Assembly (NCBI RefSeq): GCF_900187355.1
Contig: NZ_LT906451.1
Coordinates: 1,609,001 to 1,673,000 of the forward strand
Source: Legionella lansingensis
GTDB lineage: Bacteria; Pseudomonadota; Gammaproteobacteria; Legionellales; Legionellaceae
Direction: 5' to 3'
DNA: 64,000 nucleotides
Position 1 is the stretch's first letter. The number at the start of each line of letters is the position of its first letter. Both the position numbers and the translations under genes were made by a program. This document shows, piece by piece, positions 1-63,553 of the stretch. The notes beneath the pieces were generated by a model. The model was not told the origin of the DNA. It saw nothing but the letters and a program-made list of their open reading frames with translations, and searched no databases.

Positions 1-544
1 CTTCAGTCGCAATTTGTTGACGCAGTAGCTCGGGAAGTTGTCCACAAGTACGTAGGATGCAAAGTCGTTCTGCCAGTTTTATAAGCACAACGCGAACGTC
101 ATCCACCATAGCGAGAAGCATCTTACGAACATTATCAATTTGATGCTTGTTTTGGGGATATTTGTTTAGCGCTTGTAAATTATGCATCGCGCTCATTTTT
201 TCTATCCCTTTAACTAACTTAGCGATGTGAGGTCCTAACTGCTCTTCGACATCGTCTAGGGATAGCTCAGCATAGTGCACATTTTCAAAAATGATTGCCG
301 CAGTCAAGGTTTCCTGGTCAACCTCTAAATCAGCCAAAACATCAGCCATGGATAACCCAAGCTGCAAGCAGGACACACCCGTCTCGGTGGCATGATCTTG
401 TCCTGCAAGCTGACTTAGGGTACAAGCATTGCGAATCAAATCCAAATCTTGAAAATACCCTTTGCTTCCTAGTTGTTGTAACCATTGTTCAACATCAATG
501 TTTCCATCGATGGACCAAGGAGTATTTTCTTTAACTCTGACCAT
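1..544 (-). CDS. relA: GTP pyrophosphokinase RelA, N-terminal part (runs off the left edge)
   Basis: The first 181 codons of a RelA/SpoT-type (p)ppGpp synthetase, which makes the stringent-response alarmone when uncharged tRNA reaches the ribosome. The protein starts MVRVKENTPW, the usual RelA opening, and continues into the HD-like (inactive hydrolase) region with segments such as DLIRNACTL, SMADVLADL and DDVRVVLIKLAERL. The ATG at 544 lies 5 nt after the rlmD stop, and its ribosome site (AAAGGA) lies inside the end of rlmD, so the two are likely co-transcribed, the same rlmD-relA order as in E. coli. The synthetase and regulatory domains lie outside the window. Assignment is by recognition of the N-terminal sequence and context. 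Confidence 0.9.
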   Translation of the reverse strand, partial: MVRVKENTPWSIDGNIDVEQWLQQLGSKGYFQDLDLIRNACTLSQLAGQDHATETGVSCLQLGLSMADVLADLEVDQETLTAAIIFENVHYAELSLDDVEEQLGPHIAKLVKGIEKMSAMHNLQALNKYPQNKHQIDNVRKMLLAMVDDVRVVLIKLAERLCILRTCGQLPELLRQQIATE

Positions 545-2051: not shown

Positions 2052-2211
2052 GTGTGATTGAAAATGCGGTTTTGTATTAACTGTGTCTTGTTTTTTCTTG
2101 TGACGACGTCCCGCGGCTTGACCGCGGGGTCCATGATATGTTCGACGATCACTGGATCCCGCGGTCAAGCCGCGGGACGTCGGCATAAGGAAACCGCAGT
2201 TTTAATCACAC
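2052..2211. repeat. Outer imperfect palindrome in the rlmD-rlpA gap
   Basis: The gap 1885-2216 (332 bp) has no gene. Its half nearest rlpA is a nested palindrome. The outer arms are 2052-2072 and 2191-2211, which pair over 21 nt with two mismatches (core TGCGGTTT against AAACCGCA, and GTGTGATT against AATCACAC). Inside lies the high-GC element at 2104-2182. Read on the minus strand it starts 5 nt after the rlpA stop codon, so it could also end rlpA transcription. The other half of the gap (1885-2051) is AT-rich and shows nothing definite. Confidence 0.7.
2104..2182. repeat. Palindromic element, family A, intergenic copy
   Basis: Two perfect 25-bp inverted arms (2104-2128 and 2158-2182) around a 29-nt centre. 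Each arm is itself a small hairpin, CCGCGG-CTTGA-CCGCGG, and the arm next to the centre continues into ATCC(A). The same arms occur at 35121-35198 inside mnmC, with a different centre. GC content is far above the surroundings, which speaks for a mobile or spreading sequence rather than local drift. It is 79 bp, one base longer than the coding copy. Confidence 0.9.
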
Positions 2212-30520: not shown

Positions 30521-30590
30521 GCTACCACACCAATGGCAAGGTTACTCAATACTCGACCTCTAAGTTTTTTTGCTTGACTTTTTAGAATAT

Positions 30591-30621
30591 CGAATTACCG
30601 TGGTCAAGCCACGGTAATTCG
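30591..30621. repeat. Single-arm copy of palindromic family B
   Basis: CGAATTACCGTGG and CCACGGTAATTCG pair perfectly over 13 bp around the loop TCAAG. This corresponds to one end of the element at 54616-54693 folded on itself, with the same AT-rich left flank (TTTTAGAATAT). It lies between the prpB start and the terminator of the next minus-strand gene. Confidence 0.8.
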
Positions 30622-30646
30622 CTTTTTGATTTGTCAAAAATAAAAA

Positions 30647-33276: not shown

Positions 33277-35400
33277 TTAGATTCTTTTGATCAATGCTTT
33301 CTGCAAAAAACGTGCCGGAGATAAAGCTTGCACCAATGTGCGAGGCAAAAAAGAAGGATTTTGATTAATTATTGCAGCCAACCATTCTGCTGCCAAAGGA
33401 ATTGTCGTCAACCCTCTTGAACCGAAACCCGCACACAAATATAAACCAGGATAATAAGACCCAGCATAGGGCAGCCAGCGTTTTGAGTTACTCTCCAAAG
33501 TGGCAAATTGTTGCTTAAAAGCACTAGCATCTGGAGCAGGACCCACAACCGGTAAATAATCCGTTGTAGCGCCCCTTACCGCAGCCCAGCTATCTTTATA
33601 ACGATTAGATAATATTAGTGTTGACAGTTGCTTAATTCGTGCAAGGTTAACTTGATCGTCTTCAAGCTGACAATGATTGTCAGTCCTTCCTGAGTGATAA
33701 GTTGCTCCAATGGTATGTGTATTATCATGCGCAGGCAAAATATGGCCACTGCCGCAAACAGGTATTCTTAGTTTTTTACTTTCTGTATCACTTGCTATGC
33801 TTGTCATTTGTCCGCGAATGGGTTTCAGCGGTAAATAATTGGTTTGTGTAAATTGACACGCCTGATAACCGTTAGCGATAATTAATACCTCGGCAGAATG
33901 GTCATTTACATGCCAATGTCCTTCACCAAACACCAACTCATCAACCATGGTATTATGAACACAAGTAATTTCATTCTTCTTTGTGAGCAATTTACATAAC
34001 GCTTGGGAATTTAACCAGCCAGAAAGGGGAATGAATAATCCTCCGGATTGCAATTGGATACCTGCCAATTCTGAGGCTTGCGTCGCATCCACTAGCAAAC
34101 CTAACTCAGGATAAGCAGAAAGCCATTTACTCAAGCTTGCCTGACTTGCGGCTTCTTTTCCATTTAAAGCTAACTGCAGAATTCCTGATAGTTCACCTAC
34201 AGGATGTTCTGCCAACAGTCTCTGATAGGAACGAGAAGCGAATAAAAACGCGCTTAGCATAAACATGGTCAAGGGAGATTGATATGCCGATAGCCTGGGA
34301 TAGAGAACGGCTTGTTTATTACCAGAAGCGCCGCACCCCACGTCCGACTGCGCATCAATCAAGGTGACTTGCCAATTCCTTTTAGCTAAAGCATGAGCAG
34401 TGTAACAACCCGCAAGACCAGCCCCGAGCACAATCGCTTTCTTTTGGTTAACCATTCTGGGCTTATCTTGAAACCATGGTGTTGTACGAAATTTAGTCTT
34501 GACAGGGACTATCATGTCCTCCATCCGAGCAGCTATCATTTCCCGTTTGCGCCCAAAACCCGTTAACTTAGCAACAGCAAAACCTGCGTTCTGCAAATTT
34601 TTTTTAATAACACTTGCTGCCGAAAAAGTAGCCAATGTCGTACCGGGTTTAGATAATAGGCTTATGGTATAAAACAAATCTTGAGACCACATGGCCTGAT
34701 TTTTGGCTGGAGCAAACCCATCCAAGAACCAAGCATCAACATGTTGTGTCCTCAGGCTTCGTTCAAGCATCGGATCCCCACAAACTAAAAGTTGATTAAA
34801 GCACGATAATGCATCGCCCAGCATAAGGGTTAAATTTACTCGTCCATTTTCAAAGGACAAATGATGAAAGCCAGGTGTCAGTATTGGGTAATCTGTCAAT
34901 AAAGCTTGGGCTTGGTTCTTCAATTGCGGCCACAGGCTCAAGCAGCGTGCAAGATCAGCTTTCTTTAAAGGAAATTTTTCGCAACTGAGGAAGTGTAAGC
35001 GAGCATTTTGTGGAGCATATTGCAACCAGAGAGACCAGCTTAATAAAAAATTTAAAGCACTGCCAAACCCTGTTTCAGCAATAACAAAGTTTTCTTTTGC
35101 GGTAATTACTCGCTCACTTCCGACGTCCCGCGGCTTGACCGCGGGCTCCATGAATCTGGCAAGTTCGCTGGATCCCGCGGTCAAGCCGCGGGACGTCGGC
35201 GATATAGATAGAGAAGAGCAGTTACTTTTTGCTAAGGCCTGCCAGCGCTGGATCAAATTGTTTCCATTAATAAAGACATGCTCTGTTTCTTTTAAGCCAT
35301 CATCAGTTGAGAAATAGACATCATCAAATTGCAGAGAAAACGGCAACTGATTACGCCACGTCAGCTTTGCCGTTTCAATTGGAACAAAAGGACTACTCAC
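33277..35400 (-). CDS. mnmC: tRNA 5-methylaminomethyl-2-thiouridine biosynthesis bifunctional protein MnmC, with a repeat-derived insert
   Basis: A two-domain enzyme that finishes mnm5s2U34 in tRNA. The N-terminal methyltransferase (about 1-270) has FDDVYFSTDDGL, the SAM motif FVIAETGFGSALNFLL, DAWFLDGFAPAKN and GFGRKREM. The C-terminal FAD oxidase (about 310-707) has AIVLGAGLAGCYTAHALAKR and GFGSRGLTTIPL. The length is 707 against 668 in E. coli. Residues 68-94 (PTSRG to VKPRDVG) come from a 78-bp palindromic element at 35121-35198, placed in frame between GNNLIQRW and the SAM motif. The gene otherwise looks intact, so the insert is probably tolerated in a surface loop. It starts 12 nt after the peptide-transporter gene. 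Confidence 0.95.
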   Translation of the reverse strand: MSSPFVPIETAKLTWRNQLPFSLQFDDVYFSTDDGLKETEHVFINGNNLIQRWQALAKSNCSSLSISPTSRGLTAGSSELARFMEPAVKPRDVGSERVITAKENFVIAETGFGSALNFLLSWSLWLQYAPQNARLHFLSCEKFPLKKADLARCLSLWPQLKNQAQALLTDYPILTPGFHHLSFENGRVNLTLMLGDALSCFNQLLVCGDPMLERSLRTQHVDAWFLDGFAPAKNQAMWSQDLFYTISLLSKPGTTLATFSAASVIKKNLQNAGFAVAKLTGFGRKREMIAARMEDMIVPVKTKFRTTPWFQDKPRMVNQKKAIVLGAGLAGCYTAHALAKRNWQVTLIDAQSDVGCGASGNKQAVLYPRLSAYQSPLTMFMLSAFLFASRSYQRLLAEHPVGELSGILQLALNGKEAASQASLSKWLSAYPELGLLVDATQASELAGIQLQSGGLFIPLSGWLNSQALCKLLTKKNEITCVHNTMVDELVFGEGHWHVNDHSAEVLIIANGYQACQFTQTNYLPLKPIRGQMTSIASDTESKKLRIPVCGSGHILPAHDNTHTIGATYHSGRTDNHCQLEDDQVNLARIKQLSTLILSNRYKDSWAAVRGATTDYLPVVGPAPDASAFKQQFATLESNSKRWLPYAGSYYPGLYLCAGFGSRGLTTIPLAAEWLAAIINQNPSFLPRTLVQALSPARFLQKALIKRI
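35121..35198. repeat. Palindromic element, family A, inserted in frame in mnmC
   Basis: The same two 25-bp inverted arms as at 2104-2182 (here 35121-35145 and 35174-35198) around a different 28-nt centre. The copy is 78 bp, exactly 26 codons, and has no stop codon in the mnmC frame. On the opposite strand it is open as well. Confidence 0.92.
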
Positions 35401-54529: not shown

Positions 54530-54615
54530 AAAAGATGGGTTATTATAACCGTGAACAGAAGAATTTAAAAAGAGTTATTCTCGATCCTCAAGTTTTTATT
54601 TGGCTTTTAGAACAT

Positions 54616-54693
54616 CGAATTACCGTGGCTTGACCACGGTATCCAGCGATCTGCAATAAACCATGGATACCGTGGTCAAGCCACGGTAATTCG
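54616..54693. repeat. Palindromic element, family B, full copy
   Basis: Two perfect 30-bp inverted arms (54616-54645 and 54664-54693) around an 18-nt centre. Each arm is a hairpin, CCGTGG-CTTGA-CCACGG, continuing to TATCCA. It differs from family A by base-pair-preserving changes in the stem. At 78 bp it has the same length as the copy in mnmC. It lies between rlmN and pilW, so it should be transcribed. Confidence 0.92.
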
Positions 54694-54733
54694 ACATTTT
54701 GGTTTGCTAAATGCAAAAATGTTGGGGATCGAG

Positions 54734-62028: not shown

Positions 62029-62048
62029 GACAATGTAGTACCAATGTT

Positions 62049-62060
62049 GGGCCTTGGCCC
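62049..62060 (+). repeat. Left copy of the 12-bp IS target duplication
   Basis: GGGCCTTGGCCC directly precedes the left inverted repeat of the IS element, and the same sequence in the same orientation directly follows the right one at 63504-63515. Since the sequence is not self-complementary in its centre (TT), the two copies really are direct repeats. Confidence 0.9.
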
Positions 62061-63503
62061 ATAGCCGTCAGGCTAAGAAAGAAATTGTTTGTTTAACTTA
62101 TTGAAATAATAATAAAAAAAGCTAGAGTACCCTTTTAAATTTTTTCCCGCCAGGAAAACAACCAAAAGGGACTCTATGCTGCTGGATACCCTATCAAATA
62201 TTCCTCAAGAAATCTTTAAATTTTTTACTTATGAAGCGGATCGGATAGGAAAGGAAACAGGTTTTCAGAAACGCCGTTCAAAATTGACACCTAGTGTTTT
62301 TATAAAATCATTGATAACGCTCTGTTTTTCAGAACATTTTAATTTGGAACTTTTCTGTGGATTGGTAAAAACGCAAAAAGTTTATATCAAAAAACAATCA
62401 TTACATGAGCGATTTAACGAACGAACAGCCGGATTTCTTAAAGCCTTTTCATTATTCTGTTTAAAGCACTTTCAAATGAAAAAGTTACCTCAACTCCAAG
62501 GATTGGAGCAATTTAGTAGCCTTAACATCATTGATAGCAGTACTATATCCTTACATCAGGCGCTGAATGAGCTTTTTAAAGGCAGTGGCGGAGCCGCATC
62601 CAGTTCCGCTATGAAAATCCAAATGATGTTTGATTATCTTGGTGGACAAATAAAAGAGCTTACTCTAACTTCGGGCTGTGATAACGATCAGGGCTTTGAT
62701 AATTATTTTAATACTATTGAAAAAGGAGCTCTTTATTTAATGGATTTAGGTTATTTTAAACTGAACACGTTTAAGAAAATTATGGAAGAAAACGCTTTCT
62801 TCATAAGCCGCTTGCTCACCGGAACTAAACTTCTAACACAAGATAAGAAACCTTTTGATTTACTCGTTACCTTGGAGAATGCTGCACCATTCTTTTCTCA
62901 GCAGGTCCTTATGGGAGCAACGCATAAAATTCCTGTCCGCTTGGTCGCTCAACGATTACCACCAGTCATTGCCGAGCAAAGGCGGAGAAGACTTATAAAA
63001 GATCATCGTCGCCGTGGTTCCACACCAAACCAGGAATCGTTGGCTTTACAAAGTTGGTCTATTTATATTACCAATACCTCTGAAACTCAAATCAATAATA
63101 AAGCAATTCATCAAACGTATGCTTTACGATGGCAGGTAGAACTCCTCTTTAAATTAAGTAAATCCTTAATGCATATTGACTCTATCAAAACTAAAAAGTT
63201 TGCTCGAGTGATTATTGAAACCTATGGTAAGTTTATTGCAATGATGCTTTTGTTTTTGCTATGCAATCCCATGCGCAACATAGAAGGCAAACAACTCTCT
63301 TTTTATAAAGCCTGTCACCAACTAAGTTCCAAGGCTACTGGATTGATTATCGCCCTCATGTCTCCTTATCGATTAAAGCATTTCTTGAATGATTTCTATG
63401 AAAATCTCTCCCTCTTTGCTATCAAAGATTCAAAAAAGAAACCTCTTTTGACCTTTGACTTCTGCGAAGGAGAGTGCTTTTAAACTCTTAGCCTGACGGC
63501 TAT
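62061..63503 (+). mobile_element. IS4-family insertion sequence (1443 bp)
   Basis: Perfect 18-bp terminal inverted repeats, ATAGCCGTCAGGCTAAGA at 62061-62078 and its complement at 63486-63503, surround one transposase gene. The 12-bp direct repeat on both sides fits the IS4 subgroup, whose duplications are about 11-13 bp. The element appears complete and the transposase intact, so it may be active or recently so. It split a hairpin (GTTGGGCC-TT-GGCCCAAC) between fadD and kdsA. Confidence 0.93.
62176..63483 (+). CDS. IS4-family DDE transposase
   Basis: A 435-residue transposase with the DDE triad D120 (NIIDSSTISL), D190 (YLMDLGYF) and E322, the last in YALRWQVELLFKLSK, which matches the IS4 YREK pattern Y-(2)-R-(3)-E-(6)-K exactly. 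AAAGGGA lies 5 nt before the ATG. No frameshift or stop is seen. The N-terminal part is a likely DNA-binding region (LTPSVFIKSLITLCFSEHFN). Confidence 0.94.
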   Translation: MLLDTLSNIPQEIFKFFTYEADRIGKETGFQKRRSKLTPSVFIKSLITLCFSEHFNLELFCGLVKTQKVYIKKQSLHERFNERTAGFLKAFSLFCLKHFQMKKLPQLQGLEQFSSLNIIDSSTISLHQALNELFKGSGGAASSSAMKIQMMFDYLGGQIKELTLTSGCDNDQGFDNYFNTIEKGALYLMDLGYFKLNTFKKIMEENAFFISRLLTGTKLLTQDKKPFDLLVTLENAAPFFSQQVLMGATHKIPVRLVAQRLPPVIAEQRRRRLIKDHRRRGSTPNQESLALQSWSIYITNTSETQINNKAIHQTYALRWQVELLFKLSKSLMHIDSIKTKKFARVIIETYGKFIAMMLLFLLCNPMRNIEGKQLSFYKACHQLSSKATGLIIALMSPYRLKHFLNDFYENLSLFAIKDSKKKPLLTFDFCEGECF

Positions 63504-63515
63504 GGGCCTTGGCCC
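63504..63515 (+). repeat. Right copy of the 12-bp IS target duplication
   Basis: GGGCCTTGGCCC, identical in sequence and orientation to 62049-62060. Joined without the element, the sequence reads as one 18-bp hairpin GTTGGGCC-TT-GGCCCAAC. Confidence 0.9.
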
Positions 63516-63553
63516 AACAACTCCAACATCAAACGGTACGGTATCTTAAAATT

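Follow-up and report, generated by a model that had tools for sequence, protein, structure and literature searches.

How a repetitive palindrome comes to lie inside the gene of a conserved enzyme, and to be read through as part of it, is the question raised by mnmC in a 64,000-nucleotide stretch of DNA (the window) from a Legionella-like genome. A preliminary description of this DNA had reported a palindrome inserted in frame in the gene. This host genome (2.99 Mb) is a single contig, and it was compared with 21 same-genus relatives (22 genomes with the host); coordinates up to 64,000 are window positions, and those that designate places along the genome, such as 2769921 or 931108, are genome positions. 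A segment has been inserted into mnmC, it is absent from the orthologues, its sequence is shared with other places of the genome, it maintains the reading frame and it is bordered by target-site duplications. Taken as a whole, the locus is very probably explained by a non-autonomous element resembling a miniature inverted-repeat transposable element (MITE), with a core of the Rickettsia palindromic element 4 (RPE4) type, which was transposed into mnmC and is tolerated in stop-free frames.

The identity of the gene is given by a match of the open reading frame (ORF) to the NCBIfam profile NF002480 (640.6 bits, cut-off 540). The features of the locus are the following, the ends of the element having been set by eye in the comparison of copies:

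33277..35400, minus strand: mnmC ORF of 707 codons, encoding the MnmC2 methyltransferase and the MnmC1 oxidoreductase (ORF list and profile search)
35047..35076, minus strand: ETGFGSALNF of MnmC2, residues 109-118, soon downstream of the insert (orthologue alignment)
35098..35229, minus strand: the 44 inserted codons, residues 58-101, missing from orthologues (alignment)
35125..35193, minus strand: stretch matching the NCBIfam RPE4 model TIGR03777, residues 70-92, 26.3 bits against a cut-off of 23.95 (profile search)
35102..35225, no strand assigned: whole palindromic element, 124 bp, with the outer inverted repeat GTAATTACTCGCTC... / ...GAGCAGTTAC (alignment with 11 other genome places)
35120..35150, no strand assigned: left core arm, a repetitive extragenic palindrome (REP) of CGTC/RPE4 type (inverted-repeat search)
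35169..35199, no strand assigned: right core arm, the inverted copy (inverted-repeat search)
35094..35101, no strand assigned: left half of the imperfect target-site duplication (6 of 8 positions match)
35226..35233, no strand assigned: right half of the duplication

Alignment with the MnmC of other members of the genus, as proposed in the preliminary description, supported the insertion: the segment is missing in all 20 intact same-genus orthologues (a fragmentary mnmC, that of G021, was left out), which are 54-69% identical to the host protein in the 17 that were measured, as well as in Escherichia coli MnmC. The orthologues run from 'RW' to 'ETGFG', the latter within what we take to be motif I for the binding of S-adenosylmethionine (SAM), over 7 to about 11 residues and lack the 44. 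Against the E. coli protein (3ps9, 3awi) the unmatched stretch comprises 51 residues in the host and 7 in E. coli. Based on these comparisons the insert amounts to about 44 residues at 58-101, and not to the roughly 27 residues at 68-94 proposed earlier; the six bases GCAAAA occur in frame at each of its edges. The alternative of an ancestral segment lost from the other genomes, for which orthologues of equal length at this point had been named as the sign to look for, is extremely improbable and was rejected, as no orthologue carries the segment and near-copies closely resembling it are dispersed in the host genome.

The palindrome itself lies inside the mnmC ORF where it had been reported (35120-35199), with arms of 31 nt each that are 97% complementary and separated by an 18-nt spacer. 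The inserted unit is larger than the 78 bp, or 26 codons, first described, since the 124-bp element and its imperfect duplication of about 8 bp together make 132 bp, that is, 44 codons. A chance palindrome was rejected: a 22-nt arm pattern occurs four times in the window, whereas 100 dinucleotide shuffles gave a mean of 0.00, and a 17-nt pattern with up to 2 mismatches and a looser one gave 97 and 197 matches in the genome, respectively, with none for the reversed controls. No Rfam family reached its gathering score within the window, so that no known structured RNA was detected there. An assembly error was also rejected, given the single-contig genome and the presence of the outer repeat at 12 places.

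At these 12 genome places the outer inverted repeat, from GTAATTACTCGCTC to GAGCAGTTAC, surrounds the core; in three of them the 47 bp between the arms have been lost, leaving a single hairpin. Flanking 7-9-mers agree at 6 or more positions in 8 of the 11 copies measured, compared with 12% of 110 cross pairs that are as similar, and none of 20000 permutations was as good. The element in mnmC thus displays terminal inverted repeats, a gene-free interior and target-site duplications of about 8 bp, all of them features of MITEs. When most of the element (35108-35232, a query that starts 6 nt inside it) was searched in the genus, 13 of the 22 genomes, the host included, gave matches; among the matches listed, full-length ones were confined to the host, and those in the other genomes (21 searched) covered the core only.

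The insertion in mnmC is not isolated. All 124 places with an arm were read with about 2.2 kb on each side, and an open frame of at least 120 amino acids crosses the arm in 17 of them. Three (26495, 69699 and 628072) are, as we assume from the conservation of the families concerned, chance-like matches in conserved genes, and were dropped before the comparison given below; eight are found close to the end of an ORF or in a short one (216965, 445940, 572523, 1234182, 1794296, 1937397, 1996075 and 2743802) and were counted as non-internal without orthologue comparison. The remaining six are genic copies of the outer-repeat kind, found in MnmC, HyuAB/oxoprolinase (2769921), the helicase Lhr (931108), a PurQ fusion (594840), LysAC (779953) and an MFS protein (2741130). 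The first four are internal and in frame. The segment is skipped in HyuAB by 7 of the 7 other genomes having both halves (the fragment of G020 left aside), in Lhr by 19 of 19 according to match ranges, which include the 5 of 11 Lhr loci missed by a motif filter, and in PurQ by 15 of 16. In LysAC the family model reaches as far as residue 723, and the remaining residues up to 757 come from the element as a C-terminal extension; the MFS copy stands at the N-terminus and may precede the true start. The count of genome-wide copies, of those in genes and of their frames supports the generality considered in the preliminary description, with three further genes having the element internal and in frame.

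Two of the six frames of the mnmC copy are stop-free and one is used. When frames are counted from the left end on the genome plus strand, 7 of the 8 long copies share one open frame and most other frames contain stops; the six genic copies are all read in the RPE4 frame. The insert is probably translated, as judged from conserved coding sequence that continues in one frame on both sides of it. Placed on a predicted structure, it appears as a disordered loop without structure of its own, and the MnmC fold is predicted by AlphaFold to be intact. It could be argued that the peptide has been retained for its usefulness, the element donating functional segments rather than being a tolerated passenger. 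The single reading frame in all six genes speaks for this, as does the finding that internal insertions were counted at 4 of the 12 outer-repeat places and at none of the 109 others (p = 6e-5, with a post-hoc grouping); nevertheless, the common frame follows from the stops in most other frames, the hosts are unrelated enzymes and the insert is unstructured in the AlphaFold model, which makes this alternative very unlikely. Tolerance, together with purging of the other frames, predicts use of the RPE4 frame, and special targeting is not needed. The statement that the palindrome makes new protein segments can be retained in the sense of a tolerated in-frame insertion; a gain of function would be a further claim. 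Among the RPE4 matches listed for eight further genomes, Legionella or same-genus, none lay in a frame longer than 142 amino acids (E <=0.001); the listing omits the single matches of two of these genomes and some of a third.

The comparison with Rickettsia palindromic elements, which have been reported in frame within genes (PMC10969869, PMC3767692), was confirmed by the peptide, which passes the RPE4 model. Scores over the cut-off were obtained for MnmC (26.3), HyuAB (25.7) and MFS (24.4), as well as for the LysAC frame in a genome scan (28.1), and lower ones for PurQ (20.7) and GspK (21.6). The scan of the host genome (E <=1) produced 123 matches, both strands of the palindrome counted, 53 of them over the cut-off; among 14 control genomes below-cut-off matches appeared in 9 at E <=1 and in none at E <=0.001. 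In Rickettsia tamurae 150 of 150 scored candidates match RPE4, some of them within open frames of 1045, 1116, 844 and 666 amino acids. The elements are alike in the peptide over the cut-off, in an arm design at the DNA level like that of R. tamurae and in their in-frame location in unrelated genes. They differ in the Legionella-like host, in the core being enclosed by a larger outer inverted repeat, in the insert of 44 codons, in the start of the arms (GACGTC in mnmC, (T)GTCAT in R. tamurae) and in the best score (36.0 bits in the host vs 69.5). As the host is not a Rickettsia, the mnmC insert counts as RPE4-like rather than as a true Rickettsia element. Among the matches listed for the exact 25-nt arm are Legionella, Rickettsia, Kangiella, Thalassolituus and numerous uncultured Proteobacteria.

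At the DNA level the 78-bp core is a REP dimer, of the type that is called RPE4 in Rickettsia. According to the text of Di Nocera et al. 2013 (PMC3733652), RPE-4 of R. conorii corresponds to the CGTC-4 REP class, found mostly as dimers and sometimes intragenic, with a 9-bp stem having AT pairs in the first and second position, and CGTC-1 dimers of H. neapolitanus lie within longer palindromes. The CGTC tag, 5-nt loop, CCA tail and palindromic stem are all present in the window (GACGTCCCGCGG-CTTGA-CCGCGGG.TCCA), and the occurrence as dimers with some intragenic copies is likewise in agreement with what that text describes. At the corresponding places R. tamurae arms have AT...AT and the mnmC copy has GT. 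A difference from the elements of that paper is that in the host a single type of core is nested in several shells. The string 'Legionell' is absent from its main text. A comparable element of Coxiella burnetii, QMITE2, is described in the text of PMC5896051 as 150-190 bp long, with direct repeats of 7-11 nt and a REP inside, and as occasionally in frame (at the C-terminus of enhC in one strain); unlike the present element, its REP is of the GTAG type and it is mainly located in 3' untranslated or intergenic regions. No report of such elements in Legionella genes was found in the titles and abstract openings of the papers listed by searches of open-licence literature.

Across the genome, the 124 arm places comprise 60 inverted dimers and 64 single or other arrangements, and the one core type occurs in at least five outer shells (D 42, C 23, E 16, A 12 and B 11 of the 124), assigned by loose motifs that 13 places do not fit and with at least two chance-like places in shell E. 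This points to a core that is carried by mobile shells of different kinds. Three related features lie in the window, the first being the intergenic copy said before to have the same arms as mnmC, which does share arms and core with it but has a different outer shell:

2093..2193, no strand assigned: intergenic copy sharing the core but set in another shell, arms at 2104-2182
54593..54718, no strand assigned: related palindrome of the CCGTGG subfamily, different shell
30586..30646, no strand assigned: single related arm of the CCGTGG subfamily

Compensatory changes between arms exceed those in shuffles; they represent mostly one CCGCGG/CCGTGG subfamily split and were therefore not used as evidence for selection on structure. 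Compared with the mnmC copy, those in HyuAB and MFS (2769921 and 2741130) carry the inter-arm spacer in inverted orientation with respect to the shell, as though recombination between the arms had flipped the core. In the Lhr copy (931108) the second arm has been swapped for a different hairpin, GATCCCGGATCGAGTCCGGGA, also present beside other copies. Arm counts in nine other genomes ranged from 10 to 178 (reversed control 0), the highest corresponding to the Legionella shakespearei record, with about twice the 86 matches of the host for the same pattern. An insertion sequence (IS)-like unit was also noted at 62045-63519 of the window, with an ORF of 435 codons (62176-63483) and 34-bp inverted repeats that are 94% complementary; part of its end (CTTAGCCTGACGGCTATGG) also adjoins a palindrome at genome position 749340.

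As to how the element moved, a REPIN (a REP doublet) mobilized by a RAYT (Y1) transposase, rather than a MITE with its own ends, has to be considered. The core is a REP dimer and there are three Y1_Tnp matches in the host genome, which speaks for this alternative; nevertheless, RAYT genes flanked by the same REP were not found, the fetched stretch of two of these loci having no arm and that of the third a single one about 0.95 kb from the gene. Moreover, target duplications and a common outer inverted repeat suit a MITE better, and CGTC repeats are reported as unassociated with such genes in the text of Di Nocera et al. 2013 (PMC3733652). A REPIN is thus quite unlikely. Under the MITE-like interpretation, we infer that transposition was achieved by an IS transposase in trans and that the insert is nearly neutral. 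An IS66 parent was looked for and not found. IS66 ends are given in the text of PMC11946415 as GTAAGCG, with 8-bp repeats; GTAA and the approximately 8 bp agree with the present element, but GCG does not. No match to the element was found in PLSDB plasmids, and an exact 50-nt pattern of the shell was unmatched in IMG/VR, a weak test as copies need not equal the typed consensus exactly. The mobilizer may have been lost.

The sequence of events can be envisaged as follows. The element has two nested parts, an inverted dimer of an RPE4-kind, CGTC-type REP and an outer inverted repeat around it, and its transposition into mnmC would have duplicated about 8 bp. Since element and duplication add up to 132 bp, the downstream frame was kept, and the element is stop-free in the frame in which mnmC reads through it. 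The landing site separates an N-terminal helix from the first strand of the SAM domain, and the enzyme would therefore keep its fold with a disordered 44-residue loop. Copies hitting genes in stop-closed frames would presumably have been purged by selection, and RPE4-frame copies at tolerant sites would have persisted, giving at least four internal insertions.

Several observations weigh against this interpretation. A transposase that would mobilize the element was not found: that of IS66 (PF03050), the best fit as regards ends and 8-bp repeats, has no match in the host genome and is over the cut-off in 11 of the 22 genomes of the genus, and none of the scanned loci from elsewhere, with partial flanks, contained the outer repeat. 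The target duplications are imperfect, and 2 of the 12 places (855282 and 931108) retain one outer end only. The PurQ copy scores below the cut-off of the RPE4 model and the Lhr copy is not listed, and one genome (G001) has a PurQ linker of similar length and unrelated sequence. The comparison, made with other same-genus genomes and E. coli, includes no insertion-free strain of the same species. In addition, residue 115 (35056-35058), at the third glycine position of the SAM motif and 14 residues past the insert, is alanine in the host and glycine in 20 of 20 orthologues; this change, private to the host MnmC, could mean a weakened domain. It favors the alternative of a methyltransferase half inactivated by the element, with an ORF that remains open by chance and a decaying domain; we regard this alternative as unlikely.

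The tolerated insertion in mnmC is of a known kind, the protein-coding palindrome of the Rickettsia sort, here larger than first described, nested in a shell of its own and repeated in other genes. Tentatively, and with reservations, it can be proposed that RPE4-type REP dimers are modular cargo in several unrelated IS-derived shells of one Legionella-like genome and that one shell, stop-free in the core frame, acts as a mobile exon; a gammaproteobacterium would then have independently reached protein-coding palindromes of the Rickettsia type, the core perhaps having been passed between lineages that share amoebae.

Protein-coding palindromes have been discussed mainly for Rickettsia, and the Legionella-like host provides a second, unrelated case. 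Its four internal in-frame insertions, of which three face clean orthologues, allow the reasons for the survival of such insertions to be tested independently, and in this host stop-free frames together with tolerant sites seem to suffice. Annotations of an 'RPE4 domain' in other bacteria can, accordingly, be mobile-element inserts.
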